Shown here: positions 8,594 through 63,672 of the stretch, piece by piece
How positions within the stretch are numbered: the first letter of the stretch is position 1
How the letters are laid out: each line of letters begins with the position of its first letter
DNA from: Thiomicrorhabdus marina
Lineage (GTDB): Bacteria > Pseudomonadota > Gammaproteobacteria > Thiomicrospirales > Thiomicrospiraceae
Reading direction: 5' to 3'
Assembly (NCBI RefSeq): GCF_017571465.1
Contig: NZ_JAGETV010000007.1
Location: forward strand, 62,001-126,000
DNA: 64,000 nucleotides
The notes under the pieces: model-generated
The model's database searches: none
Seen by the model: the letters and a program-made list of their open reading frames with translations, nothing else
Told to the model about the DNA's origin: nothing
Made by a program: the position numbers and the translations under genes

Positions 8594-10489
8594 TTGGCCG
8601 AAAATTACAATGCAGCGGAAATTGAAGTCCTAACCGGCTTGGAGCCAGTGCGTAAGCGTCCGGGGATGTACACCGACACTACCCGCCCAAACCATTTAGC
8701 ACAAGAAGTTATCGATAACAGCGTCGATGAAGCGCTTGCCGGGCACGCCAGTGAAATCACCATTACTCATCATGCGGATGGTTCCATGAGTGTGCTGGAT
8801 AACGGTCGTGGTATGCCGGTTGATGTGCACCCGGAAGAAGGGGTTCCCGGGGTGGAAGTGATTATGACGCGCCTGCATGCCGGCGGTAAGTTTTCCAATA
8901 AATCCTACAACTTTTCCGGTGGTCTGCATGGAGTTGGTATTTCGGTAGTGAATGCTTTGTCGACGAAAGTGGAAGTACAGATTCGTCGCGATGCGCAATT
9001 ACATCAAATTACCTTTGCCAATGGTGAACTGCAACAGTCGTTAGAAGTGATCGGTAAGGTCGGCAAGAAAAACACCGGCACGATGGTGCGTTTTTGGCCG
9101 GACGCCAAGTTCTTCGATAGTGCTAAATTTTCGATTAGCAAGTTGTTGTATTTACTACGCGCTAAGGCGGTGCTGTGTTCTGGGTTAAAAGTGAATTTTG
9201 TTGATGAAAAAGACGGCAAAAAAGAAACTTGGCAATATGAGCAGGGCTTAAAAGATTATTTGAATGATGCGCTGGATGGTCGCGACCGCTTGCCGCAAGA
9301 AGGTTTTGTCGGCGAAAGCATTGCCGAGCATGAGCAAGTTGAATGGGCGATTGCATGGTTAGAAGAGCCAAGTGAATCGTTGAATGAAAGTTATGTCAAC
9401 CTGATTCCAACGCCGCAAGGCGGGACCCATGTAAACGGTCTGCGTGCCGGGGTGACAGATGCAATCCGTGAGTTTTGCGAGTTCCGTAATTTGATTCCGC
9501 GCGGTATTAAAATCACCCCGGAAGACGCGTGGTTGAATGTTGCTTTTGTACTTTCGGCTAAAGTTAAAGAGCCGCAATTTGCCGGTCAGACTAAAGAGCG
9601 TCTGTCATCTCGTGAGTGTGTGCCGTTTATTTCCGGCGTGGTTAAAGACGCCTTGAGTTTATGGCTGAACCAACATACCGAAGTGGCCGAAAAAATCGCC
9701 GAGATGGTGATCTCTAATGCCAGCAGTCGTGCGCGTAAAGCCAAAAAAGTAGTGCGTAAAAAAATTACTTCCGGCCCGGCTTTGCCGGGGAAATTAGCAG
9801 ATTGTGTTGACACCGATTTAGCGCGTACAGAACTGTTTTTGGTGGAAGGCGATTCCGCTGGTGGTTCTGCCAAACAGGCTCGTGATAAAAGTTTCCAAGC
9901 GATTATGCCGTTACGAGGCAAAATTCTGAATACTTGGGAAGTTGAATCGAATCAGGTTTTGGCCTCGCAAGAGATTCATGATATTTCTGTGGCGATTGGG
10001 GTAGATCCAGGTTCTGAAAATCTTAGTGCTTTGCGCTATGGAAAAATCTGTATTTTGGCGGATGCCGATTCCGATGGTCTGCATATCGCTACGTTAATCT
10101 GTGCATTGTTTGTGAAACATTTCCCGAAATTGGTTGCAGAAGGGCATATCTATGTAGCCATGCCTCCGTTGTATCGAATCGATGTCGGTAAAAAAGTGTT
10201 CTATGCTTTGGATGAAGCCGAGCGTCAAGGTGTATTGGACAGAATTTCCGCAGAGAAGTTGCCGGGTAAAATTCAGGTTACGCGCTTCAAAGGTTTGGGT
10301 GAAATGAATCCTGCGCAACTGCGAGAAACCACCATGCTGCCGGAAAGCCGTCGTTTGGTGCAGTTGCAGCTGGACGAAGAGAGTCAAGAGCAAAACGTCA
10401 CCGAAGTGATGGATATGCTGTTGGCGAAAAAACGCAGTCCAGATCGTAAATCCTGGCTGGAACAGAAAGGTGATTTAGCCAGTGTTTAA
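8594..10489 (+). CDS. parE: DNA topoisomerase IV subunit B
   Basis: This is a GHKL ATPase plus TOPRIM protein of 631 residues, matching E. coli ParE (630). Motifs are LEPVRKRPGMYT, the ATP-site VIDNSVDEAL and DNGRGMPVD, GGLHGVGISVVNA, and the TOPRIM ELFLVEGDSAGGSAKQARD and LADADSDGLHI. The frame is open upstream to 8528, but the protein family starts at the TTG at 8594, which has AGGAG 7 nt before it. With ParC (22,488) it decatenates sister chromosomes. parC lies 12 kb away, so the two subunits are not in one operon here. Confidence 0.96.
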   Translation: MAENYNAAEIEVLTGLEPVRKRPGMYTDTTRPNHLAQEVIDNSVDEALAGHASEITITHHADGSMSVLDNGRGMPVDVHPEEGVPGVEVIMTRLHAGGKFSNKSYNFSGGLHGVGISVVNALSTKVEVQIRRDAQLHQITFANGELQQSLEVIGKVGKKNTGTMVRFWPDAKFFDSAKFSISKLLYLLRAKAVLCSGLKVNFVDEKDGKKETWQYEQGLKDYLNDALDGRDRLPQEGFVGESIAEHEQVEWAIAWLEEPSESLNESYVNLIPTPQGGTHVNGLRAGVTDAIREFCEFRNLIPRGIKITPEDAWLNVAFVLSAKVKEPQFAGQTKERLSSRECVPFISGVVKDALSLWLNQHTEVAEKIAEMVISNASSRARKAKKVVRKKITSGPALPGKLADCVDTDLARTELFLVEGDSAGGSAKQARDKSFQAIMPLRGKILNTWEVESNQVLASQEIHDISVAIGVDPGSENLSALRYGKICILADADSDGLHIATLICALFVKHFPKLVAEGHIYVAMPPLYRIDVGKKVFYALDEAERQGVLDRISAEKLPGKIQVTRFKGLGEMNPAQLRETTMLPESRRLVQLQLDEESQEQNVTEVMDMLLAKKRSPDRKSWLEQKGDLASV

Positions 10490-13495: not shown

Positions 13496-13532
13496 GGTTT
13501 TACCCTTGATGTACGACTAAATGGCATAGTAT

Positions 13533-13564
13533 CACAAAAAAAACAGGTGTTTTAACACCTGTTT
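13533..13564 (-). terminator. Rho-independent terminator of the lipoprotein pair
   Basis: An 11-bp inverted repeat (AAACAGGTGTT/AACACCTGTTT, 13,541-13,564) is followed, in the minus direction, by a run of Ts (seen as A8 on the plus strand). It is 28 bp after the end of the 13,592 gene. Confidence 0.85.
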
Positions 13565-13591
13565 AAAGTAGTAATTAAAGTGTTTTTAGCT

Positions 13592-15070
13592 CTAATTAAA
13601 GATGAGTGAACCGTTGATGATCATGGTTCCTTCGCCGGTACAGGTGTTACATGCTTTGGCAGGTAACACCGTGTTGTTGAAGTTAACCGTTTTGGTATCG
13701 GCGTCGATGGTTATATTGAAGTCATTCAGGGTTCCGTTGTCTAAATATTTCTCATAAACAATTGTTCCGTCTTGAGTGTATTTTAGCTGGATAAAGCCTG
13801 GAGACATATCAAATAGATTATTTGTGTAATGTACTTGGAGTGCAATGATTCCCCCTTTTCTTGTCGTGTTGGGAATGACGTTATCAGTAAAGTAGATTGC
13901 CGTCGCTCTTTCAGGAACTTCAAAGCCAGCGCCTGGGCAGAATTCAGTGCCAGTCAGAGCGGTGACATTGGCTTCGCCGGAAAGCGTCACACTTCCATAA
14001 GTACCGCTGCAAGTCGAACCGCTATTGTTTGACGAGGCATCATTAAACTGACCATAAAATTTAAAACCAGTTTGGTCGTAATTTAGATTATTACTAATAT
14101 TGATTTCTCTTAGTGTTTCGCCTGTCACAATGGATGAAGCTGCGTATTTGAGGTTATTGGTGTTGTCTGTCCAGATGGCTTCGTAAGGATTTCCTTTATA
14201 TAACACTGGATTTGTTAGGGTGGTGCTACCGTCAATCACGAGAGAGCCGTCGGTACCTAGTGCAAATGTTCGTTGGGTACCATCAGCAATTCCTGATCCT
14301 GGAGCAGATTCTGTAAAGGTAAAAGTATATTGCTTGGCATGTTCGGCAAGAATCGTTGCTGGACTCTCATTTAAGCCATTGCTGGGATTGCTATTTTCAA
14401 AAGAAATACCATCGACAGAAATTGCTTCATCAAATGTAAAATTGGGTAATGCTGGAATCTCGAATGAGAAACTGCTGTTTGCCAAATCAACACTTACTCT
14501 TATTTCATCCAATAGTTTGTCAAATCCAGTGCTATTGGCAACAAACGGTGTTGTTAAGAAATTGTAGCTATTAGGATCTAACCCCTTTTCAGTTATTTGA
14601 TCACGCAGGTTGGCGTTTATTTTTGCTTGTGCGACAAGTACATTTTCTAGGGTGATATTGCTTCCATCCCAATCATCATAAAGCGTATCAAGGTTGATTT
14701 TATTGACGGCCAGAAAAAGTGCTAGATGGGTTAAGGGGGTGATATTGACAGTTTGATTGTTGGTCTCGGCGAAAGAATAGTAGGTTTTTAAGCCGTCTTC
14801 TGATACCACTTTTAATACAATTGGGGCTGTTAAGTTAGCAGCATCAAGTGTAAAAGAGCCATCTAACATGGTAGCGATGTTGATTTCATTTCCGCTAGCA
14901 TCTTTAGCAAAAACAAAACCTTTAATTGGAGCTCCGGTTGCAGCCGTTCCTGCAAGCCCAGCAGCTGGTGTCGTTTCATTTGATGATGGATTGCTATTAT
15001 TACAAGCGGTAAGGAATAGTCCAAAAATTAAAACTGGAACTATCAAAATGCGTTTTATGATTGTTTGCAT
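13592..15070 (-). CDS. Uncharacterised lipoprotein with a carboxypeptidase-regulatory-like N-terminal domain
   Basis: This is a 492-residue secreted protein. The signal peptide ends in FGLFLTAC (lipobox Cys23), then a Ser/Asn/Thr-rich linker. Residues about 40-120 (TGAPIKGFVFAKD, LDGSFTLDA, NITPLTHLALFLA) resemble the transthyretin/carboxypeptidase-regulatory-like repeat found at the start of many proteobacterial lipoproteins. The remaining 350 residues are polar and beta-rich, with two Cys near the C-terminus (KACNTC). I do not recognise a catalytic motif. It lies 13 bp downstream of another lipoprotein gene and the two are probably co-transcribed. Confidence 0.7.
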   Translation of the reverse strand: MQTIIKRILIVPVLIFGLFLTACNNSNPSSNETTPAAGLAGTAATGAPIKGFVFAKDASGNEINIATMLDGSFTLDAANLTAPIVLKVVSEDGLKTYYSFAETNNQTVNITPLTHLALFLAVNKINLDTLYDDWDGSNITLENVLVAQAKINANLRDQITEKGLDPNSYNFLTTPFVANSTGFDKLLDEIRVSVDLANSSFSFEIPALPNFTFDEAISVDGISFENSNPSNGLNESPATILAEHAKQYTFTFTESAPGSGIADGTQRTFALGTDGSLVIDGSTTLTNPVLYKGNPYEAIWTDNTNNLKYAASSIVTGETLREINISNNLNYDQTGFKFYGQFNDASSNNSGSTCSGTYGSVTLSGEANVTALTGTEFCPGAGFEVPERATAIYFTDNVIPNTTRKGGIIALQVHYTNNLFDMSPGFIQLKYTQDGTIVYEKYLDNGTLNDFNITIDADTKTVNFNNTVLPAKACNTCTGEGTMIINGSLIFN

Positions 15071-40819: not shown

Positions 40820-41469
40820 GTAGCCAAAAGATGATGTTCGCACCGTCAATCAATGGAAAAATCATTTTCAATGGATTTAAACGTGCTTATAATGGCTACG
40901 AGTTTGCAAATTCAAACTCCGGTTTTAGCAGGCCGTTTTATCAAGGCGTAGAAATAGCGCCGTCATTGTCTTATGATCTTGGCGTTTTTTTATGTCCATT
41001 CTATTGTGGTGCCCGGAAGTTGGGAGGACTTTTGTCCTGCCGTTCCCTTGGTAGCGGTCTGCTAACCCGACTTTCGGTCGCCTCCATGTTTTTAGCAGGA
41101 CAGGAAGTGACTCCTAAAATACCAAGGAGAACACTCATGGATAACTGTATCCAGAATTTGCCGTATCCGGTAAATACTCACCAAAAACAAATTCTTAATA
41201 AGCTTTTAGGGCGTAAGCGTTTCAATCGAGATGTTTTGCTTGAACTCAAAAAGCATCAATTCATTACTGAAATCAAAGCAAGAGCTGTGAACGTTGGTTG
41301 GGTTGTCGATCTGTTAACGATAGATCAGCAAGTTTCAACGTTGAAAACGCTTGATGGTTCCAAAGATAAGATTTTCAAATCTCTCGATACCGTTAACGAG
41401 TTTTTGATTGAACTTGGTTGTTTTGGCTTTGTGGTTACTTTCGAAAATAAGGAGGTGACTCATGGCTGA
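40816..41469 (+). CDS. Leader-spanning frame with internal start; hypothetical satellite protein
   Basis: The frame has 217 codons, but the last 110, from ATG 41,137, have their own strong AAGGAG site 7 nt upstream. They form a compact soluble protein (MDNCIQNLPYPVNTHQKQ, KHQFITEIKARAVNVGWVVDLL). The first 107 codons cross a structured RNA region (41,033-41,129) and are rich in Ser, Gly, Leu and Cys, like a leader peptide. Either one long protein or two nested products could be made. P4-like elements often have an ash/icd-like leader frame overlapping their immunity RNA here; similarity to that family is not established. The stop overlaps the primase start. Confidence 0.55.
   Translation: MSSQKMMFAPSINGKIIFNGFKRAYNGYEFANSNSGFSRPFYQGVEIAPSLSYDLGVFLCPFYCGARKLGGLLSCRSLGSGLLTRLSVASMFLAGQEVTPKIPRRTLMDNCIQNLPYPVNTHQKQILNKLLGRKRFNRDVLLELKKHQFITEIKARAVNVGWVVDLLTIDQQVSTLKTLDGSKDKIFKSLDTVNEFLIELGCFGFVVTFENKEVTHG
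41033..41129 (+). ncRNA. Leader with mutually exclusive hairpins (P4-like immunity/attenuator candidate)
   Basis: TGTCCTGC (41,033-41,040) can pair with GCAGGACA (41,095-41,102), while CTGCTAA (41,059-41,065) can pair with the overlapping TTAGCAG (41,092-41,098). CCTTGGTA (41,046-41,053) can pair with TACCAAGG (41,120-41,127), which covers part of the AAGGAG ribosome site of the 41,137 gene. A small CGAC/GTCG hairpin sits in the middle. These pairings compete, as in attenuators and P4 CI-type RNA control. Confidence 0.45.
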
Positions 41470-47118: not shown

Positions 47119-47135
47119 TGGTATGCCCATTGCTT
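47119..47135 (+). promoter_or_regulatory. Sigma-54 (-24/-12) promoter of the carboxylase operon
   Basis: TGGTATGCCCATTGCTT matches the consensus TGGCACG-N4-TTGCW with two mismatches. The invariant GG and GC are separated by exactly 10 bp. The transcript would start near 47,145. Confidence 0.7.
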
Positions 47136-47220
47136 ATTACGTTTTTAGTAATTAGTAATAAATTGGCGTTTGCGGTGTATTCTTAGCTGCGAAAGGCCTA
47201 AACCGAATGGTAATGAGCAC

Positions 47221-48198
47221 ATGAATGAGCGTTTTTCCAGTTGGGCGAGTCCCAGAACTGAATTAGACAAAACTTCAAAACGTCTTCTCACCGCCGCCAG
47301 TTTTCTGCTGCCGATTCTTTTGTGGTGTTTGGTGAGCTACAGTCCATATATTTGGCATCCGCAGATGGAAATCACCAGCCCTGGGCAGGTCAGTTATTTC
47401 CGTGAAGGTTCTTTGGTCGATAGAGAAGTCTTTGAAATCGAGCGTAACAAGATTCTGGAAAAAACACCTGAAGCAACTGTGGAGCAACTGCCGCAAGGGA
47501 TTCCGTCGAACCCCGTTTATTTGCCGGCACCGCATGAAGTGATGACGGCGATGTACACCGCCTTTACCACGCCTCCAAAACGCAGTAATGAACCTTGGTT
47601 GCACGAGAGCTTATTGCACTCAATTCAGGTCATTGCATGGGGCTTTTTCTGGGCGATGCTGTTCGGTGTGCCGCTGGGGATTTTAGCCGGTACTTACAGT
47701 TCAGCATCTTACCTAATTGAACCCTTTACCGAATTTTTCCGTTATCTACCGGCTCCGGCCTTTGGAGCTTTGGCGGTTGCGGTCTTAGGGATCTATGACG
47801 CGCCGAAAATCGCCATTATCTTTATTGGAACTTTCTTCCAGATGGTACTGATTGTCGCGGCAACCACTCGAAAATTGAATATCGCGCTGATTGAAGCGTC
47901 GTTAACACTTGGCTGTAAAGGTCGCAGAATGATTGGCAAAGTGATTCTGCCGGGCGTGTTGCCAGATTTATACCGCGACATGCGTATCTTGCTCGGGTGG
48001 GCTTGGACTTATCTAATTGTTGCTGAATTAATCGGAACCAGTTCAGGGATTACATGGTTTATTACTCAGCAGGCGCGCTATAAGAATTTCGACAATGTGT
48101 TCGCAGCTATTTTGATGATTGGTTTAATCGGTCTGATTACCGACATGATTTTAGCGCACTTCGGTAAACGCCTGTTCCCATGGCACCAAAACAAATAA
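47221..48198 (+). CDS. ABC transporter permease, urea-carboxylase-associated (TauC/SsuC type)
   Basis: This 325-residue integral membrane protein starts at ATG 47,221 (the frame extends 17 codons upstream without a ribosome site). The first helix is at about 20-40, then a periplasmic insert of about 75 residues, then the binding-protein-dependent transport domain. The latter includes HSIQVIAWGFFWAMLFGVPLG and the cytoplasmic coupling loop EASLTLGCKGRRMIGKVILPGVLPDL (EAA motif). It imports a small organic solute with the 48,213 ATPase. No binding-protein gene is adjacent; a fitting one lies at 62,620-63,606 in the convergent operon. Confidence 0.9.
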   Translation: MNERFSSWASPRTELDKTSKRLLTAASFLLPILLWCLVSYSPYIWHPQMEITSPGQVSYFREGSLVDREVFEIERNKILEKTPEATVEQLPQGIPSNPVYLPAPHEVMTAMYTAFTTPPKRSNEPWLHESLLHSIQVIAWGFFWAMLFGVPLGILAGTYSSASYLIEPFTEFFRYLPAPAFGALAVAVLGIYDAPKIAIIFIGTFFQMVLIVAATTRKLNIALIEASLTLGCKGRRMIGKVILPGVLPDLYRDMRILLGWAWTYLIVAELIGTSSGITWFITQQARYKNFDNVFAAILMIGLIGLITDMILAHFGKRLFPWHQNK

Positions 48199-48212
48199 TC
48201 GAGGGGAATCTT

Positions 48213-49121
48213 GTGACAACAGAGCATCCGTTAGCTAAGTGGAATACGCCGGAAATTGAAGATCGAAACCAGAGGATTCTACAACGTCCACCAAGTTTGA
48301 AGATTTCCGGCATGCATAAGAGTTTTGGGCATGACGGCAAGATGGTCAAAGTTTTAAACGATATTGATTTTACCGCCTACAAACGTGAATTTGTCTGCGT
48401 GGTTGGACCATCTGGCTGCGGTAAATCGACCTTGGCACGTTTGATTGCCGGATTAGAAACCTATGAAGAAGGCGTGATTAGTATCAATGATGAAGTGGTT
48501 TCAGGTCCTGGTCCGGATCGCGGAATGGTTTTTCAAAGTTACTCGCTATTCCCGTGGCTGACGGTTAAGAAGAATGTCATGTTTGGTTTGGTGGAAAACG
48601 GTATGTCGGAAATCTCTGCTGAAGCAGAAGCCTTGCAGTGGATTGATTTGGTTGGGCTAGAGCGTTTTGCCAACTCTTATCCGCATCAGTTGTCGGGTGG
48701 CATGAAACAGCGTGTGGCGATTATCCGTGCTTTGGCTAATAAGCCAAAGGTATTGTTGATGGATGAACCCTTCTCGGCGCTGGATCCAAAGAACCGTTTG
48801 AAGATGCAAAAGTATCTGTTGGAGATTTGGAAAAACATCGATATCACCATCTTCTTTATCACGCACGATTTAGAAGAGGCGATTTACCTAGCAGACCGTA
48901 TTTTGGTGTTGAAGGCGCATCCGGGCGAGGTGGTGGAAACCCTGAATGTGCCCTTGCCAAGACCTCGTAAAGAAGATACTTTTCTATCGGAAGAGTTCCT
49001 TGCCACCAAAGCGTATTTAGAAAGCTTGGTGCATTCGGAAGAAGAGGAAGTCGATATGGAAGAGAAACTGAGCATGGTTCGCATGGTTTCCGTTAAATCA
49101 GATGTACCGGATATTTTTTAG
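48213..49121 (+). CDS. ABC transporter ATP-binding protein (TauB/SsuB type)
   Basis: This 302-residue protein has Walker A GPSGCGKST, Q-loop FQSYSLFPWLTV, signature LSGGMKQRVAIIRAL, Walker B VLLMDEPFSALD and H-loop FITHDLEEA. It powers the permease encoded upstream. I chose GTG 48,213 because GAGGGG lies 6 nt upstream and it follows the permease stop; an ATG at 48,180 lies inside the permease gene. A C-terminal extension of about 50 acidic residues (EEEEVDMEEK) follows the ATPase core. Confidence 0.93.
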   Translation: MTTEHPLAKWNTPEIEDRNQRILQRPPSLKISGMHKSFGHDGKMVKVLNDIDFTAYKREFVCVVGPSGCGKSTLARLIAGLETYEEGVISINDEVVSGPGPDRGMVFQSYSLFPWLTVKKNVMFGLVENGMSEISAEAEALQWIDLVGLERFANSYPHQLSGGMKQRVAIIRALANKPKVLLMDEPFSALDPKNRLKMQKYLLEIWKNIDITIFFITHDLEEAIYLADRILVLKAHPGEVVETLNVPLPRPRKEDTFLSEEFLATKAYLESLVHSEEEEVDMEEKLSMVRMVSVKSDVPDIF

Positions 49122-49123
49122 AT

Positions 49124-49561
49124 ATGAGTAGTGAATTAATTAGAACCAGCGTCTCCCTACCGGGAAGTGTCGCGGAAGAGTTGGAATTTTTAGTCAAGGC
49201 CAATGGTTACAACAACCGTTCGGCTTTGATTGCCGATTTAATTCGTAAAGAGGCGGCGGCTTTCCGTCAGGATCATACCAATGAGATCATGGCCGGAACT
49301 TTCACCATGGTGTACGACCATTCGGTGCCGGATTTGCAGCAGAAGTTAAACGCACTGAAACATAAATATGTGGCGGAGATTATTTCCAGTCTTCAGATTC
49401 AACTGATGGATCAACACACTCTGGAAGTCAATTTAATGCAAGGCAAGGCGCAGGATTTAAAGAAAATCAGTGCCGAGTTAAAAGCGAATCGTGGGGTAAA
49501 GAACGGCAATCTGTATTTGACCCATTCAGCACTTCCGCCAATCTACACCAAGCAAAATTAA
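49124..49561 (+). CDS. NikR-like ribbon-helix-helix regulator without nickel ligands
   Basis: This 145-residue protein has an N-terminal ribbon-helix-helix (IRTSVSLPGSVAEELEFLVKANGYNNRSALIADLIRKE, compared in pieces with NikR GYNNRSEAIRD) and a C-terminal ACT-like domain. The alignment to E. coli NikR is ungapped across the metal site. The position of His76 keeps His (LKHKY), but His87, His89 and Cys95 are replaced: LHVH is LQIQ and Cys is Thr. So it should not be a classical nickel sensor. It probably senses a pathway metabolite and regulates this operon. It starts 2 bp after the ATPase stop. Confidence 0.8.
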   Translation: MSSELIRTSVSLPGSVAEELEFLVKANGYNNRSALIADLIRKEAAAFRQDHTNEIMAGTFTMVYDHSVPDLQQKLNALKHKYVAEIISSLQIQLMDQHTLEVNLMQGKAQDLKKISAELKANRGVKNGNLYLTHSALPPIYTKQN

Positions 49562-49576
49562 GACAGGAGAGATCAC

Positions 49577-50329
49577 ATGACACAAGCCGCAGCAAGCGAA
49601 ACTTATCAAGGGCATATTTGGACAGAGTCCTTTCCTGGTGGGGCGCACTGGTCCGGCGTGATTCGCCGCGGTACGGTTTTGCGTATTACTGACATTAACG
49701 GTGCTGCGAATGTTTCGATGCTTATCAATAACCTTGAAGTGAAGAACGAACGTTACAACATGCCGGATACTCTGAAAGCGCAGAAAACTGCATTTTTGAC
49801 TGTGCCGAATATGTGTTTTAGCGATATGGGACGAGTGATGTGTTCGGTGATTGCCGACACTTGCGGTTGGCACGATACCATCGGCGGTATTTCCAATGCG
49901 GCTTCGGTGAAGAAAAAGTACGGCGAAAAAGATTATCAGCAAGCGCATAACGACTACTACAAAAACGGTTTTGAAAACCTGTTAAACGAGCTCGAAAAAT
50001 GGGGGCTAGGCACTAACGACATCATGCCGACCGTTAACTGGTTCAGCAAGGTTCGTGTCAGCGATGAAGGCACAATGGAATTTATTGAAGGCAATTCGAA
50101 AGCTGGTGATTATGTCGATTTGCGTTTTGAAATGGACTCGATTGTCAGCCTGAGTTTTGCTCAGCATCCGATGGACCCGAACCCGGAATATGCGCCGCAA
50201 CCAATCGAGTTGTCAGTATTCAAAGCCAATCCGGTGGCACAAGACGACCCATGTCGTTTGCACCGTGGCGAAAATGAACGCGCTTACTACAACACCAAAG
50301 TTTACTACGGAGAAAACCCAAATGACTAA
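49577..50329 (+). CDS. cgdA: DUF1989 urea carboxylase-associated protein 1 / carboxyguanidine deiminase subunit
   Basis: This 250-residue DUF1989 protein has [18 protein letters not shown], a likely metal/active-site block, and SRGAAN-like [14 protein letters not shown]. Proteins of this type (UAAP1) next to urea carboxylase were shown in Pseudomonas syringae and relatives to be carboxyguanidine deiminase subunits that release ammonia to give allophanate. It overlaps the next DUF1989 gene by 8 bp, so the two are made together. An AGGAGAG site precedes ATG 49,577. Assignment as the A subunit follows gene order. Confidence 0.85.
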
Positions 50330-50966
50330 GCCTGAATTTGATGAAAACCGCATTGTGTATCGTGAAGTGGTCAAGGCAGGCGATCCTTGGATGCATGAGG
50401 TAAAAGCCGGTCAATATTTTCGCATTGTTGATTTGGAAGGCAACCAAGCCGTGGATACCTTGTTCTATAAAGCCGATGACCAAGCTGAGCGCTATTCGGC
50501 GACCGATACCATTCGCGAGCAGGGCAATATTTATCTGACCACTGGCAGTGTTTTGCGCTCTAATCTGGGGAATCCGATGCTGACGATTGTTGACGATACC
50601 TGCGGTCGTCACGACACCATTGGTGGTGCTTGTTCGGCGGAAAGTAACACCGTGCGTTATTCGATTGATAAACGTCATATGCATTCTTGCCGCGACTCCT
50701 TTTTAAAGGCGTTGAGCAAATGTGAATGCAATCACGGCAAAGCCATGACCAAAGATGAGCTTTCCTCCAATATCAACTTCTTTATGAATGTACCGGTATC
50801 GCCGGACGGTCATTTGGATTTTGACGACGGTATCTCTGCTCCGGGACGTTATGTCGAAATGCAGGCGGATATGGATGTATTAGTGCTGATTTCCAACTGC
50901 CCTCAGTTGAATAACCCTTGTAATGGTTATAACCCGACGCCGGTCGAATTAATCGTTTGGGAATAA
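50322..50966 (+). CDS. cgdB: DUF1989 urea carboxylase-associated protein 2 / carboxyguanidine deiminase subunit
   Basis: This 214-residue DUF1989 protein is a paralogue of the previous one, with [21 protein letters not shown]. It also has [17 protein letters not shown], the counterpart of the first protein's DINGAAN segment. It starts at ATG 50,322 inside the end of cgdA; the frame is open upstream to 50,157 but that part overlaps cgdA. With CgdA it would form the heteromeric deiminase acting between carboxylase and allophanate hydrolase. Four extra Cys ([10 protein letters not shown] and KCEC) distinguish it. Confidence 0.85.
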
Positions 50967-51048: not shown

Positions 51049-54000
51049 ATGTTTAATAAAGTGCTCATTGCAAACCGTGGGGCGATTGCCACTCGTGTCA
51101 TCCGCACCCTCAAAAAAATGGGAATGGGTTCGGTTGTTCTGGCATCGGAAGCGGACCGCGCTTCACTGCATGTTCAAATGGCGGATGAAGTGATCTTCCT
51201 GCCGGGCAATGCGGCCAGCGAAACCTATTTAAATGTGCCTTTAATTATTTCTGAAGCGGTCAAACTCGGTGTCGAAGCGGTTCATCCGGGCTATGGTTTT
51301 TTAAGTGAAAACACCGGTTTTGCCGATGACTGCGAAGCGGCTGGAATTCGTTTTATCGGTCCGACGCCTGAACATATTCGCGATTTCGGTTTGAAACACA
51401 CCGCGCGTGAACTCGCGACCAAAGCCGGTGTTCCGTTGCTACCGGGTTCGTCTTTATTGGAAAGCCCAGAAGAAGCGCTTACTGAAGCGGCTCGAATCGG
51501 TTATCCGGTAATGCTGAAGAGCACCGCTGGTGGTGGCGGTATCGGTATGCAGAAATGCGATAGCGAAACGGAATTAAGTGAAGCCTTTGCACAAGTTCAG
51601 CGTTTAAGCCAAAACTCTTTCGGTCAGGCTGGGTTGTTCTTGGAGAAATTCGTCGTCAATGCACGCCATATTGAAATTCAAGTGTTTGGTGACGGCCGTG
51701 GTGAAGTGGTATCACTTGGTGAGCGTGATTGTTCTTTGCAGCGCCGTAACCAGAAAGTGGTTGAAGAAACTCCGGCTGTCGGCATTAATCCGCAACAGGT
51801 TGCCGAGATGGAGGTCTATGCGGTTGAATTGTGTAAATTGGTTAACTACCAATCGGCCGGTACGGTCGAATATGTCTATGATAGTGATACCAATGATTTC
51901 TATTTCTTGGAAGTGAATACTCGCTTGCAAGTAGAGCACGGTATTACCGAAGAAGTGCGCGGTGTCGATTTGGTCGAATGGATGATTCGCGTCGCCTATG
52001 ACAATACCTTACCGCTTAGTGCCGCACAGATTCCTGCCGCAGACGGCCATTCGATTGAAGTGCGTATCTACGCCGAAGACCCGTTTAAGAATTTCCAGCC
52101 GAGCACCGGCAAGATTACTCAGTGGTCAATTGCTGATGGCTGTCGAATCGAAACGTGGTGTAAAAGCGGCATCGAGGTCAGTTCTTTCTATGACCCGATG
52201 TTGGGCAAGCTGATTGTTAAAGGCAAAGACCGTGAAGAAGCGGTACAAAAGCTACAACAAGTTTTGCATGAATCGCGAATCCACGGCTTTGAAACTAACC
52301 TTGCTTACCTTGCTGCTTTGAGTAAGAACAATAATTTTGTTCAGGGCGCAGGTCTGTTTACCCGTTTCTTGAACGGCTTTAGCCATACGCCGAATACCAT
52401 TGAAGTCACCAACCCGGGAACGCACTCAATGCTGGTGAGTTATCCGGGGCGTGTCGGTTTTTGGGATATTGGTGTGCCGCCGTCCGGGCCAATGGATGCT
52501 TTGTCGCACCAGTTGGCGAACCGCTGTCTGAATAATGATAAGGAAGTCGCGACCATCGAGATGACAGTCTCCGGTATCAGTCTGAAATTCGATACCGATA
52601 CGGTTATCTGTTTGACCGGTGCCGATGTGCAGCCGAAGCTAGATAAAAAAGCGATTCCGATGTATCAGCCGGTCAAGGTTAAAGCCGGTCAGCAATTGAA
52701 AACCAAAGTCATAAAAGCGTTGGGGCAACGCGCTTATCTAGCGGTACTTGGCGGTTTTGATGTGCCGGATTATATGGGCAGTAAAACCACTTTCTCGCTA
52801 GGCGGTTTTGGCGGCCATGGCGGTCGTTTGTTGCGCACCGGTGATGTGTTACGACTGCATAATCTGGAGATCCCAGAAGAGTTGCCAAGCCTGAGCGAGC
52901 AACAGATTCCGGAACTAACCAATCACTATGAAATCGCGGTGGTTTATGGTCCGCAAGGTGCGCCGGATTTCTTTACCGAAAGTGATATTGAAAAATTCTT
53001 TAATGCCGACTGGGAAGTGCATTACAACTCCAGCCGTACCGGTATTCGTCTGGTCGGTCCGAAACCGGATTGGGCCCGTTCCGACGGGGGCGAAGCCGGT
53101 CTGCATCCTTCCAATATTCACGATAATGCCTATGCTATTGGCGCGGTCGATTTTACCGGTGATATGCCGGTCATTCTGGCGCAAGACGGGCCAAGCCTAG
53201 GGGGCTTTGTCTGTCCGGTCACCATTATCGAAGCTGAGCAGTGGAAGATGGGGCAACTGCGTTCCGGCGATAAAATTCGCTTTAAGGCGGTATCGATTGA
53301 AACCGCCGAAGCGGCTTTGCAAGCGCAGGGTGCGGCGATTGCCGAATTGAATGCGCCGGTTTGTCCTGAACTGACTTTCTTAAATGAAGCAACCGAACAA
53401 GATTGCTTAGCGTTGGAAGTTGACGACTCCGAACATGAATTCGGCGTTAAATATCGTCGTTCCGGTGACAGCCGAGTGCTGATTGAATACGGCAAGATGG
53501 AATTGGATTTGGCATTACGTTTCCGAATTCAGGTGTTATTGGAGCGTTTAAAAGCCAATAAAGCAGACGGTTCTTGGGCGTTTATCAAAGAGTTGACGCC
53601 GGGAATTCGTTCCATGCAGGTGCATTACGACCCACGTCAAATTTCGCAAAACCAAATCATCGAAAAACTGTATGCACTGGAAGCGGAAATCTCCTCCGGT
53701 AAGGATTTAACCGTTAAGAGTCGTATTGTTCGTTTGCCATTGTCTTGGGATGACCCGAGCACGCGTTTGGCGATTGAAAAATACATGACCACAGTGCGCC
53801 CGAATGCGCCGTGGTGTCCGAGTAATATCGAGTTTATCCGCCGCATTAACGGCTTGGATAGTATCGAAGATGTTAAACGCATTGTTTTTGATGCTAAATA
53901 TCTGGTGATGGGACTTGGCGATGTTTATCTTGGCGCGCCGGTGGCAACGCCGATGGATCCAAGACATCGTTTGGTAACCACTAAATACAATCCAGCGCGA

Positions 54001-54684
54001 ACGTGGACACCGGAAAATGCAGTCGGCATCGGCGGTGCATATATGTGTGTTTACGGGATGGAAGGGCCGGGTGGTTATCAGTTCGTCGGTCGTACTATTC
54101 AGATGTGGAACGCCTATCACCGTACTAACCGTTTCACCGAAGAGAAGCCTTGGTTATTGGATTTCTTCGACCAGATTCAGTTCTATCCAGTTAGTGAAGA
54201 AGAGCTGAAGCAGGCTCGCGTCGATTTCCCGCTAGGGCGTTTTGATATTGAAATCGAAGAGACCGAATTATCGCTAAATGCCTATCAAGCGTTTATTGAA
54301 GAGAACCAGAGTAGTATTAGCGAATTTAAAACCAAACAGCAAAATGCCTTTGATGCCGAACGCCAATACTGGGAAGAATCCGGTTTGGCGAATTTTGAAA
54401 CCGAAACCGCACAGGATGAAGTACAAAGTGAAGGCATGATTGAAATTCCGGAAGGTTATGAAGCGGTCACTTCGCCGATTACCGGCAGTATCTGGAAAAT
54501 CGAAGCCAAACCGGGCGACAAAATCGAAGAAGATCAGACGATTGCCATTCTGGAAGCGATGAAAATCGAGGTGCCGATTGGTGCGGAAATGGGTGGAACC
54601 ATCACCGAAATTCTGGTCAATGAAGGTGATCTGATTCAGACCGGTCAGACCTTAATGATTATGCAAGTGGAGGAAGAAGCATGA
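51049..54684 (+). CDS. Biotin-dependent urea/guanidine carboxylase
   Basis: This is a 1211-residue single-chain carboxylase. Biotin carboxylase spans about 1-450 ([42 protein letters not shown]). A KipA/AHS2-type domain follows ([18 protein letters not shown]), then KipI/AHS1 ([11 protein letters not shown]), a linker, and a C-terminal biotinyl domain with ILEAMKIE (Lys near 1172). It carboxylates urea to allophanate or guanidine to carboxyguanidine. The two DUF1989 genes next to it favour guanidine, but I cannot confirm the substrate-specifying residue from sequence alone. The stop overlaps the hydrolase start (ATGA). Confidence 0.93.
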
Positions 54685-56495
54685 GCAATAACTTAACGGA
54701 TTTGCGCATCGCTTTGCTGAAACAATCCTATGCGGCCGGTGAGACTACGCCGCAACAAGTGGTGACTGAAATTCTAAGCAAAGCGGCCGAATATGCCGAC
54801 TATAACCTGTTTATTACCTTGTTTGATAACTCGCAGGTTGCGCCTTATTTACAAGGTTTGCAGAGTACCGAAATTAATAGTCTGCCGCTGTGGGGGATTC
54901 CATTTGTCATTAAAGACAATATTGATTTAGCCGGTATTCCGACAACTGCCGGTTGTGCGGAATATGCATATACTCCAGAAGAATCGGCGAGCGTAGTGCA
55001 AGAACTGATTGATGCGGGGGCGATTCCAATTGGTAAATCCAATCTGGATCAGTTCGCGACCGGCTTGGTCGGCACGCGTTCGCCGTATGGGGTTTGTCAT
55101 AATGCGTTTGATTTCGAGAAGATTTCCGGCGGCTCCAGTTCGGGGTCGGCAGTTGCTTTGGCGTTGAACTTGTGTAGTTTTTCTTTGGGAACCGATACCG
55201 CTGGTTCCGGTCGAGTTCCGGCGGCGTTTAACAACCTGATTGGCCTTAAACCGTCTAAAGGTTTATTAAGTACCAAAGGTGTGGTTCCGGCGGTGCGCTC
55301 ACAAGATGTGGTCAGTATTTTTGCCCTGAATTCACAAGATGCCTACAGTGTTTTTGAAGTGGCGGCGAGCTTTGATACGAAAGATGAGTTTAGTCGAAAG
55401 GAAGTCGATTTAACGCCACCGCCTTGGCCGACTAAGCCGGTTATCGGCATTCCTGATAAAGCCAGTCTTATCTTCTCTGATGATGCTATGGCTGAGACTA
55501 ATTTCCACGACACTTGTAGCCAGTTGCAGTCGTTGGGTTTTGAATTAAAAGAAGTGCCTTTCAGTGCTTGGTTGGAAACCGCCAAACTACTGTATGGCGG
55601 CGCTTGGGTAGCGGAACGTTATGCAGCGATTGAAGATTTCATAGAACAACATGAAGCGATTATGGACCCGACCGTTGCCGGTATTATCGCTTCGGCTCGT
55701 AATCTTTCCGCTGCGGATGCCTACAAAGGCAGTTACGCTCTGCAGAAAGCGATTCGCGAAACCGAAATGCTTTGGCAAGCAGCGGGTGTTGATTGCATGA
55801 TGACACCAACCACGCCGACGATTTATTCGCTTACTGAAGTGGCCGAAAATCCGGTTGGGCTGAATTCGATTTTGGGGACTTATACCAATTTTATGAATTT
55901 GCTGGATTATGCGGCAGTCGCCATGCCGACCGGTTTCCGTGCTGATGAGCTACCGACTGGCGTAACCTTCTTTTCGCCTGCCGGTAGCGATCGCCAGTTA
56001 TTGAAACTATGCGATGAATTACATCCGCAGTTTGTTGAATTTTCTGGTTCAAAACAGACGCCGGTGCCACAGAGCAATCCGGAAATGTTTGCCAATCCAG
56101 CGGTGATTCCTTTGGCAGTGGTTGGTGCGCATCTCAGTGGTTTTCCATTGAATAGTCAGCTTTTAGAGCGTGGTGCCAAGTTATTGGAAACCACTAAAAC
56201 GGCTGAAAAATACCAATTCTATGAGTTAGCCAGTCGCCCGATTCTGAAACCCGGTTTAGTTAAGCAGCAACAGGGTGGCAGTTCAATTGAGTTGGAAATT
56301 TGGGCGATGCCGAAAGAACATCTCGGTAGCTTTCAAGCACTGATTCCATCACCGCTAGGGTTAGGTAAAGTTGAACTCATCGACGGTCGAGAAGTGGTTG
56401 GGTTTATCTGCGAACCTTATGGCATCGACGGTGCGAAAAATATTACTGCAACCGGCGGCTGGCGCAATTGGATGAATCAACGCGAAGCAGATTAA
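54681..56495 (+). CDS. atzF: Allophanate hydrolase
   Basis: This 604-residue amidase-signature enzyme has catalytic Lys78 in [11 protein letters not shown], the Ser block [14 protein letters not shown], and nucleophile-region [22 protein letters not shown]-terminal domain (about 460-604) ends ATGGWRNWM. It converts allophanate to ammonia and bicarbonate, the last step of the urea/guanidine route. It is translationally coupled to the carboxylase and closes the operon at a strong terminator. Confidence 0.93.
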
Positions 56496-56612: not shown

Positions 56613-57974
56613 TTAGAACAAGTGGCTATAGCGTTTAATTTCCCAAGCAGAAATCGTTTCGTGATACTCACGCCATTCTCGACGCTTGTAAGTGATGAAT
56701 TCATCGCTCAGTTCTTTACCAAGCACTTCTTCAACAAACGGATCGGCCTCAAAAGCTTCAACCGCTTCCAATAGGTTTTGCGGTAGGAAGTCGATACCGC
56801 GAGCAGAACGTTCTTCATCACTCAATTCGTACAAGTTGTCTTCTTGTGGGTGACCTGGATCGAGTTTTTCACGAATCCCTTGCAGACCTGCTGCCAGTAC
56901 CAAAGTAGCCGCTAGATAAGGGTTAACCGCACCGTCGGCATTACGCGATTCAAAACGGCCGCCGCCCATCGGAACACGAACCGAGTTGGTTCGGTTGTTA
57001 GAGCCAAACGAGTTAAATACCGGTGCCCATGAGAAGGTTTTCATGTCGCCTTGACGAACCAGACGTTTGTAGCTGTTTACCGTTGGCGAGAAGACCGCGC
57101 ACAGCGCCGGGCCGTGTTTAATCACGCCGGCGATAAATTGATAACCGAGTTCGGTTAGTCCTAAGCCGCGAGGATCGTCTTCCGGTTTGCATTTAAAGAC
57201 GTTCTCGCCGGTCTCTTTATCGAATAGCGACATATTAAAGTGCGCGCCATTCCCGGTTTTGTCGGCGTAAGGTTTCGGCATAAAGGTTGCCAAGAGACCC
57301 TCTTCTTGTGCATAGTGTTTTGCCATATAGCGGAAGAAGATAAAGCGGTCGCACATGGTTAGGGCATCGCTGTACTGGAAGTCGAATTCATACTGACCAT
57401 TCGCGTCTTCATGGTCGAAAGAGTACAAATCCCAACCAAGGTCGTTAATGGTGGTCGCCATTTTATCCAACCAAGTGAAACGGTTCATAAAACTACGCAC
57501 GTCATAACAAGGCTTGACCAGACGGTCGTCCGGATCAGGCACCGATAAGCTGCCGTCCTCTTCTTCTTTCAGCACGAACAGTTCGCATTCGATACCTAAG
57601 TTGAAACCAAAGCCCATCTCTTCGGCTTCGGCCAGTACTTTTTTTAGTGCGACACGAGTATTGATTTCGTATGGTTCGCCATGCAGTGTGTTGTCGGCGG
57701 CCATCCACATCATTTCCGGTTGCCACGGCAGTTGGATGGCGCTGTTTAAATCTGGAACCGAAGCGATTTCATCTTCATTCGGTTTTTGTCCAAGACCGTC
57801 CAGCGCGTAACCGGTGTAAAGTTCCGAACCTTCAACCATATGTTCCAAGTGATTAATCGGCACCACTTTACCTTTCGGGATACCGTGAATATCGACATAA
57901 GCGCCAAGGCAGTATTTCACGCCTTTCGCTTTCCATTCTTCTTTGAGTTGTTTGACATCTACTTCGTGGTTCAT
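56613..57974 (-). CDS. glnT: Type III glutamate-ammonia ligase (GlnT/GMAS-like)
   Basis: This protein of about 453 residues belongs to the glutamine synthetase fold. It has [17 protein letters not shown] (active-site Glu), [25 protein letters not shown], the ATP-grasp-like NSYKRLV and [23 protein letters not shown]. GlnT-type enzymes make glutamine from glutamate and ammonia; close relatives make gamma-glutamylmethylamide or other gamma-glutamylamides, so methylamine or another amine could be the substrate. ATG 57,974 is chosen because AGGAG lies 7 nt upstream, whereas the ATG at 57,980 abuts that site. It is the last gene of the minus operon. Confidence 0.88.
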
Positions 57975-58024
57975 TTGCATTCTCCTATTTAAAGATGCGA
58001 TTCAGTAATCAATTACCGCTGACG

Positions 58025-58795
58025 TTATTCGTCATCGGTTAATGTTTGGTGATAAGAATGCGGTAGCGGCGGTTGCTCTTTCAGCCCTGCGCGAATAGTT
58101 TCGGCTAAGTCTTCCCGCATCCATTCAAATAGCTCTTCGCCTTTATTAACGGTTGCGAGGCTTGGTTTACCGGTGACGCCATTGGCGCTGGTTCGATTGA
58201 CCGGATGCGAGAAAACGCAATTTTCGGTGCGATCAGGGTCGTCGCTGTCGGTAAGTTTGTCTTGGCGCACGATTTGTGGCGCCAACGCCATCATTAGCGA
58301 GGTTTCCGCTTCATTGGCATGCCAGTCTTCGGCATCCTCAAAATGGCGCTGTTTGACTCGCTCGCTGACGGTGGCTGAATTAATCAGAGCGACCATTAAG
58401 TCGTCGTGTTCGGCTCGCAGCATTTCCAGTGCGCAGCGCAAAGGAGCAAAGTTGGAAACGTGACTATTAAGGATAAACAGACGCTTAAAACCGCTGTAAG
58501 CGACCCAGTCGCCAACTTCTTTGACGACATCGATTAGGGTTTTCGGTTGCAGGGCTATCGTTCCCGGCCAACGTTTGGAGTGGCCGATTGAGCAGCCGTA
58601 AGGTAAGGTTGGCAGTATAGCGATGTCGGTTAAATCACCGACGGCTTTAGCAAGTTGGTCGGCAATTTCCGAATCCATGCCGCAGCCTAAATGCGGGCCA
58701 TGCTGTTCGGTCGCGCCGACCGGTAATAAAGCGGCGCAGTTGTCAGCTTGTGCGTATTTGGCGATTTCAGGCCAAGTCATGTTATGCCATTGCAT
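58025..58795 (-). CDS. Creatininase-family amidohydrolase
   Basis: This 256-residue protein has LLPVGATEQHGPHLGCGMD (metal-binding Glu, His and Asp), SIGHSKRWPGTIAL, the usual NGHGGN-type loop as LNSHVSN, and WHANEAETSLMM. Creatininases open cyclic amides; family members act on creatinine, formamidopyrimidine intermediates and mycofactocin precursors. The Glu of true creatininase (NGHYEN) is Ser here, so creatinine is unlikely to be the substrate. It lies 44 bp upstream of glnT in a nitrogen-controlled operon, fitting hydrolysis of an amide or lactam intermediate. Confidence 0.85.
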   Translation of the reverse strand: MQWHNMTWPEIAKYAQADNCAALLPVGATEQHGPHLGCGMDSEIADQLAKAVGDLTDIAILPTLPYGCSIGHSKRWPGTIALQPKTLIDVVKEVGDWVAYSGFKRLFILNSHVSNFAPLRCALEMLRAEHDDLMVALINSATVSERVKQRHFEDAEDWHANEAETSLMMALAPQIVRQDKLTDSDDPDRTENCVFSHPVNRTSANGVTGKPSLATVNKGEELFEWMREDLAETIRAGLKEQPPLPHSYHQTLTDDE

Positions 58796-58880
58796 GCTTC
58801 TTTCCTTTTTTTATTATCTTTTTTAGAAAAGGTAATACCTTTTGGGTAAAAAAATTCCGAATGTCTTACCTTTTCGGTTG

Positions 58881-62619: not shown

Positions 62620-63606
62620 TTACATACCTTCGGTAATGCTGCCGTCAAAATAGCTATTTACATCTTGTGGTGTGTCATAAACTTTATTGTTGACATTAAA
62701 GTCATCAGAAACCTTTGACGAACCGAAGATTGAGTCAAGCCCAGTGCCTTTTTTGTAAGCCGCCTTTGCTTCTTCAAGAGTTAATAGTTTGGTGCCTTCT
62801 AGGAAGGGAGCATATTCTTCAGGCGTTAGACCAACGCGAGAAGACATGATTTTTAGAGCGTCGTCGCGAGTTTTCGGGTCTTGGATATAGCCCACTGCTT
62901 GATACCAAACTTTCACCACTTTTTCCCAGTCTGCATGACGAGCCGCTAGGCTTGCAGGGTTAACAGAAAGGCCATCGTAGATAATCCCTTTCTTGTCGGC
63001 AGAGGTGAATACCGCGGTTGACCCCGGTACCATTTTTAGAGCTTGTCCCGAACTTGGTTGCCACGCAACAATTGCGTCAACTTCGCCAGAAGCCAATACT
63101 TGTGGGGTTTCGTTAGTAGGAACGTTAACTAAAGTGACGTCCGACTCTTGCATACCGTTTTCTTCAAGCGCGGTTAACAGCAGTAGATGACCCACGAAAC
63201 CGACTTCAACACCGATTTTTTTGCCTTTTAAGTCCTTGATTGAAGAAATACCCGGTTGTGCAACCACCATATCGTTACCGTTTGAATAGTCGTTGATTGC
63301 AATCATTACGCTCGGTGCGCCGGTTGATCCGGTTACCAGTGCATCGCCATTGGTCATGCCAACGGCATCCAATTGACCGGCCGCAAAAGCATCCATTGAA
63401 GCCACGTAGTCAAACCATTCGAATTGCACATCGACGCCTTCTTTAGCGAACCAATCTTTTTCGACGGCGACTTCCCAGGCTACCCAGCCAGGCCAGTCGC
63501 TGTAACCGATTTTTAATGGTTCTGCCGCGTTTGCTGTCCAGCCCATCGCTGAAAGTGCCAGACCGGCAAGGATATTTTTAGATTTAGAAAGAAAAGTCGA
63601 CTTCAT
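62620..63606 (-). CDS. ABC transporter periplasmic substrate-binding protein (TauA/SsuA/NMT1-like)
   Basis: This 328-residue exported protein has a Sec signal peptide ([18 protein letters not shown], cleaved near ANAA). The mature part is a type II periplasmic fold: [63 protein letters not shown] and [17 protein letters not shown] 63,606 is chosen (GGAG 8 nt upstream); the frame is open to 63,792 but that part contains the sigma-54 promoter. It is the missing partner for the permease/ATPase of the convergent operon. Relatives bind taurine, sulfonates, nitrate, cyanate or thiamine precursors. Confidence 0.92.
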
Positions 63607-63655
63607 GCTAGAACTCCAATAATTATTACGAAAACTATATTTGGTAATAAAGTGG

Positions 63656-63672
63656 AAGCAGTAGTCGTACCA
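63656..63672 (-). promoter_or_regulatory. Sigma-54 (-24/-12) promoter of the minus operon
   Basis: On the minus strand, TGGTACGACTACTGCTT matches TGGCACG-N4-TTGCW with two mismatches and exact GG-N10-GC spacing. It should start transcription near 63,646, about 40 nt before the start codon. Confidence 0.72.

Follow-up and report, generated by a model that had tools for sequence, protein, structure and literature searches.

DNA binding by NikR, the ribbon-helix-helix (RHH) nickel sensor described from E. coli, H. pylori and P. horikoshii, is promoted by nickel. Its high-affinity, square-planar nickel site is formed by His76, His87, His89 and Cys95, and in the Ni-NikR-DNA complex a potassium ion is held by Glu30 and Asp34 (PMC7055735). 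The regulators considered here share with NikR the RHH plus NikR_C fold, a predicted 28-bp operator of two half-sites and a frequent position beside a transporter operon. They differ from it in the absence of the HHHC nickel site, in a new C-terminal tail, in the regulon, in the potassium site (Glu30 is altered, Asp34 in most) and in the half-site, which is GTATTAC in nearly all of their clusters and GTATGAC in NikR.

Two further systems are relevant. The guanidine-I (ykkC) riboswitch controls the same operons, with genes for a substrate-binding protein (SBP), UAAP proteins and carboxylase, but it is an RNA and not a protein, and its occurrence is largely complementary to that of the regulator. 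CdbA is an RHH DNA-binding protein that answers a small organic molecule, c-di-GMP; its ligand and role are different, and its abstract mentions no NikR_C domain (PMC7156744). Guanidine-binding transcription factors are an open question according to a 2025 review (PMC12186494), and a comparative nickel survey of 2009 treats NikR and urea carboxylase separately (PMC2667541). Among open-licence papers we found no description of a NikR or CopG protein with guanidine or urea carboxylase, and one in a subscription journal is possible.

The regulator and its gene cluster

The regulator is encoded by an intact ORF of 145 amino acids in the analysed stretch of 64,000 nucleotides, hereafter the window (table 1). 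It contains RHH_1 and NikR_C domains (NikR_C E=2.4e-21), and its closest solved structure is that of P. horikoshii NikR (2bj1, E=8e-25). The AF2 model, predicted with the proteins of plasmid records left out, has a pLDDT of 86, its top Foldseek matches are all NikR, and its C-domain matches 1q5y at 1.0 Å. By architecture and fold the protein thus belongs to NikR, and its score against the NCBI NikR equivalog model (107.6 bits, cut-off 105) means that genes of this type risk being mislabelled as nickel-responsive. In the alignment with NikR of E. coli and P. horikoshii, H76/H87/H89/C95 of the E. coli protein correspond to H80/Q91/Q93/T99 (window numbering), and the square-planar nickel site is therefore absent. 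The potassium site is also incomplete, with Asp34 kept and Glu30 replaced by Ala; Arg33 is likewise Ala. The H/Q/Q/T quartet and the operon order are common to 16/16 Thiomicrospiraceae sequences (alignment A1).

Table 1. Features of the guanidine cluster and its predicted control elements in the window
Feature	Coordinates	Strand	Evidence or remark
Predicted sigma-54 -24/-12 promoter TGGTATGCCCATTGC, abutting operator	47119..47133	+	8/10 consensus positions
Operator dyad TTATTACGTTTTTAGTAATTAGTAATAA upstream of permease	47134..47161	.	0 mismatches
ABC transporter permease, first gene of the operon	47221..48198	+	
ABC transporter ATPase	48180..49121	+	
NikR-like regulator (RHH_1 + NikR_C)	49124..49561	+	domains, quartet H80/Q91/Q93/T99, AF2 model
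UAAP1 (DUF1989), carboxyguanidine deiminase subunit by family	49577..50329	+	TIGR03425 342 bits
UAAP2 (DUF1989), carboxyguanidine deiminase subunit by family	50322..50966	+	TIGR03424 352 bits
Urea/guanidine carboxylase	51049..54684	+	Asp in GAVDFTGD motif, predicts guanidine
Allophanate hydrolase	54681..56495	+	
Type III glutamine synthetase (GlnT)	56613..57980	-	accompanies regulator in other clusters too
Creatininase-like amidohydrolase	58025..58795	-	
Weaker operator-like dyad upstream of creatininase-like gene	58811..58838	.	2 mismatches
ABC transporter SBP, TIGR03427-like	62620..63606	-	
Second operator dyad TTATTACGAAAACTATATTTGGTAATAA upstream of SBP gene	63623..63650	.	0 mismatches
Predicted sigma-54 promoter TGGTACGACTACTGC of SBP gene	63658..63672	-	sequence

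The regulator gene lies between those for the ATPase and UAAP1, the order being permease, ATPase, NikR-like regulator, UAAP1, UAAP2, carboxylase and allophanate hydrolase. The convergent GlnT, creatininase-like and SBP genes are counted as part of the cluster because they are contiguous with it in other organisms. The window carboxylase has Asp in the GAVDFTGD motif where urea carboxylase of K. lactis has Asn, in an alignment column that we take to be the published position, residue 1330, and the guanidine-type Asp is present in all 29 carboxylases of the cluster loci. Asp marks guanidine carboxylases and Asn urea carboxylases (PMC12186494). All components of the guanidine carboxylase pathway are thus found together: UAAP1/UAAP2, carboxylase with the active-site Asp, allophanate hydrolase and an ABC importer. 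Given the UAAP genes and the carboxylase Asp, guanidine is the likely substrate, and 'guanidine operon' is a better name than 'urea operon'.

These results bear on a first-pass annotation of the same DNA, which had described a NikR-like protein with the H/Q/Q/T quartet in a nickel-independent urea/guanidine operon and had suggested structure prediction as a check. The ORF, the domains, the alignment and the model all agree with its description of the protein. The nickel independence of the operon also stands, as neither urease nor [NiFe] hydrogenase, nor any further NikR_C protein, was found in the genome (99.99% complete). Guanidine is retained as the pathway, and urea is not.

Homologues and the loss of the nickel site

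We searched 369 genomes of Gammaproteobacteria, 398 of Pseudomonadota and 194 of Verrucomicrobiota, together with plasmids, and worked with 100 distinct homologues, which come from Gammaproteobacteria, Alphaproteobacteria and Verrucomicrobiota. The HHHC quartet is kept in 49 and missing in 51. Guanidine-cluster genes, counted as UAAP/carboxylase or as transporter and/or GlnT genes, lie beside all 51 homologues without the quartet except one near-duplicate (L183), and no UAAP, carboxylase or permease genes were seen within the approximately 1.5 kb examined around the 49 HHHC homologues. Cys95 is replaced in every one of the 51 cluster homologues (by Thr, Ser, Ile, Val or Tyr), whereas the other three positions differ between clades, giving HHHT, YNNT, RHLT, AHFS, HHHY and others beside the HQQT of the window clade. 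The earlier statement that three of four ligands are replaced therefore describes the window clade; judged from these sequences, the general mark of cluster regulators is the loss of Cys95. The proposed look at homologues beside the carboxylase gave a uniform answer, since they always lack the full ligand set. The suggestion that the fold has been reused for another signal holds in that a NikR fold is present without its nickel site, but not in the sense of the old pocket as a conserved new binding site, because positions 76, 87 and 89 vary widely.

Other parts of the protein have changed as well. Glu30, Arg33 and Asp34 are altered in most of the cluster clade (Glu30 to Gln or Ala, Asp34 mostly to Glu), and the clade has acquired a new C-terminal tail with an invariant proline (P138 in the window). 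Outside the former metal site the C-domain is conserved, as at Q106, S89 and V102. The idea that a new, conserved ligand cage has formed where nickel was once bound was considered and rejected, the quartet being too variable across the clade. In a maximum-likelihood tree of 82 rows, all 38 cluster members then known fall into a single, long-stemmed clade (support 100/99), which points to a single conversion of NikR to a cluster regulator. Plasmid pSA1 of Novosphingobium resinovorum (L061) carries two regulator copies in one cluster (9989-10414 and 13531-13953), with a dyad near each.

Predicted operators and sigma-54 promoters

A search upstream of the operon's first gene for shared operators, as the first-pass annotation had recommended, was successful. 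The 28-bp dyad TTATTAC-N14-GTAATAA occurs upstream of the permease gene in 18/18 relatives with at most two mismatches, and the dyad before the SBP gene is kept in 10/10; in the 2.83-Mb genome the only two exact dyads are those at the permease and SBP promoters. Some relatives have an exact dyad whose distance from the SBP gene is equivalent to that of the weaker site at 58811-58838. Across the cluster loci, 214 kb in all, no further dyads with 0-1 mismatch were found (shuffled sequence gave 0 and 0.2). Since dyads with up to two mismatches show no genome-wide enrichment (24 sites, while the reversed pattern has 36), only exact or conserved dyads were used. At least two core sites are present in 14/14 genomes of the genus with the regulator and in 2/18 without it (Fisher 5e-7, a value that ignores relatedness).

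The dyad extends beyond the genus. With a matrix trained only on sites of the window's family, the top-scoring site in 16 of 17 clusters from other families and classes is a 28-bp dyad before cluster genes. Similar dyads occur in four of seven further Verrucomicrobial clusters, and a good one was not found at the Verrucomicrobial locus L031; in sphingomonads predicted dyads also precede the regulator's own gene. The dyad is as long as the E. coli NikR operator and has its half-site changed to TTATTAC/GTATTAC, while the dyad of one cluster (L098), GTATGAC-N14-GTCATAC, contains the E. coli operator GTATGA-N16-TCATAC itself. At 13 of the 18 permease promoters a predicted sigma-54 element abuts the dyad, and at 15 it lies within 1 bp. 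Independently, a published survey counts COG3665 genes among the sigma-54 targets, and over half of these genes carry a urea carboxylase annotation.

Distribution relative to guanidine riboswitches

No riboswitch was found in the 64-kb window. All seven regulator-free UAAP/carboxylase clusters have a guanidine-I riboswitch, including five from Pantoea, Caballeronia, Rhizobium, Thioclava and Paraburkholderia that carry it at their head (5/5, chosen for taxonomic spread and not randomly). Among 34 regulator-bearing clusters it occurs in two, both from Acinetobacter (Fisher 4e-5 against the five regulator-free clusters). At the level of whole genomes, 42 of 44 with the regulator have no guanidine-I riboswitch anywhere, and in the two exceptions it heads a separate UAAP/carboxylase cluster without the regulator. 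Four clusters (L097, L099, L101 and L103) combine a dyad before the SBP gene with a guanidine-II riboswitch before the carboxylase or UAAP genes.

In the Acinetobacter clusters (L062 2827-2984, L064 142-316) a dyad is followed directly by the guanidine-I riboswitch before UAAP1, and these clusters are apparently under dual control by protein and RNA. In three loci of the Thiomicrorhabdus group a guanidine-II riboswitch lies just 3' of the allophanate hydrolase gene (L026 16580, L029 16509, L030 16480). Two Verrucomicrobial loci match the Rfam 5' ureB sRNA family (L197 4655-4953, L199 5101-5390), which is unexpected so far from Helicobacter; these matches are possibly spurious or the family misnamed.

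Proposed function and alternatives

The NikR fold, the lost nickel site, the single clade, the link to the cluster, the conserved dyads, the promoter type and the complementarity with the riboswitch can all be read from sequence, and control of the guanidine cluster by the regulator is well supported by these comparisons. We lean, with some reserve, towards a NikR-derived local repressor of the guanidine uptake and assimilation genes, with guanidine or a close derivative as its inducer. The RHH tetramer would bind the 28-bp dyad, with the consensus TTATTAC/GTATTAC-N14-GTAATAC/GTAATAA. The bound regulator would cover the start site and block the start of transcription, as is expected from a dyad placed immediately after the -12 element of a sigma-54 promoter. 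Guanidine, or a close guanidino compound, would bind the ACT-like C-terminal domain and release the operator, and general nitrogen control would be supplied by sigma-54. The chief weakness of the guanidine-repressor reading is the former metal pocket, which is variable and has no conserved ligand cage; its variability suggests a ligand site in another part of the ACT-like domain, or ligands that change from clade to clade. Relief by a ligand would also require inverted allostery, since NikR binds DNA more readily with nickel, and this counts against the reading, as do the Acinetobacter clusters with both regulator and riboswitch and the locus L031.

In three clusters (L095, L096 and L098) the regulator is accompanied by transporter and/or GlnT genes, and carboxylase and UAAP genes are lacking, so that the signal may extend beyond guanidine and may be the imported substrate. 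The same cluster and dyads could then answer urea, allophanate, a nitrogen-status metabolite such as glutamine, or another transporter substrate. All clusters do share a core in which the regulator is joined by transporter and/or GlnT genes, the variable pocket is compatible with another ligand, and the C-terminal domain is ACT-like. We regard such a signal as unlikely, though it deserves serious weight, because guanidine-I riboswitches hold the equivalent place in regulator-free clusters and nitrogen control is already given by sigma-54.

The variable pocket, together with the dyads before the regulator's own gene in sphingomonads, would also suit a repressor or autoregulatory brake that has no ligand and simply damps the sigma-54 promoter, with a nickel domain that has decayed to an oligomerisation scaffold. 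The conservation of the C-domain outside the site, including the new P138 tail, and the replacement of a ligand-responsive riboswitch make this very improbable. That the protein is still a metal-responsive NikR, using the remaining His or new ligands to tie guanidine metabolism to nickel or a different metal, is also very improbable: the window clade retains H76, some other clades have HHHT or HHHY, and the NCBI equivalog cut-off is passed, but Cys95 is gone in all cluster homologues, the residues at 30, 33 and 34 are changed in most, the quartet is intact in 49/49 non-cluster homologues, and the genome search revealed none of the nickel-related proteins sought.

The lost nickel site, the conserved dyads and the position at guanidine uptake and degradation genes in many bacteria make this nickel-sensor-like protein a strong and testable candidate for the guanidine-sensing protein that is still missing. 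In a wider form of this reading, for which we find the balance even, a metal-sensor fold would have been converted once to an organic-cation sensor, giving a widespread protein receptor for guanidine that takes over, at the same promoters, from the guanidine-I riboswitch in at least two phyla. If true, a metal sensor has turned into a sensor of an organic ligand and a protein stands in place of a riboswitch. With a concrete protein, an operator and a conserved regulon at hand, the question of the guanidine sensor reduces to a binding assay.

Flanking genes

GlnT and/or creatininase-like hydrolase genes accompany the regulator and transporter in the window (56613-58795) and in L095, L096 and L098, sometimes without carboxylase or UAAP genes; they possibly represent a second pathway for guanidine, or for a different guanidino compound, that has gone unnoticed. 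Upstream of the guanidine operon, the segment 37022-46700 contains an integrase gene beside a tRNA, a C4 antisense RNA (41002-41088) and primase-like and DUF927-like ORFs, which suggests that a P4-like satellite has integrated immediately 5' of the operon.
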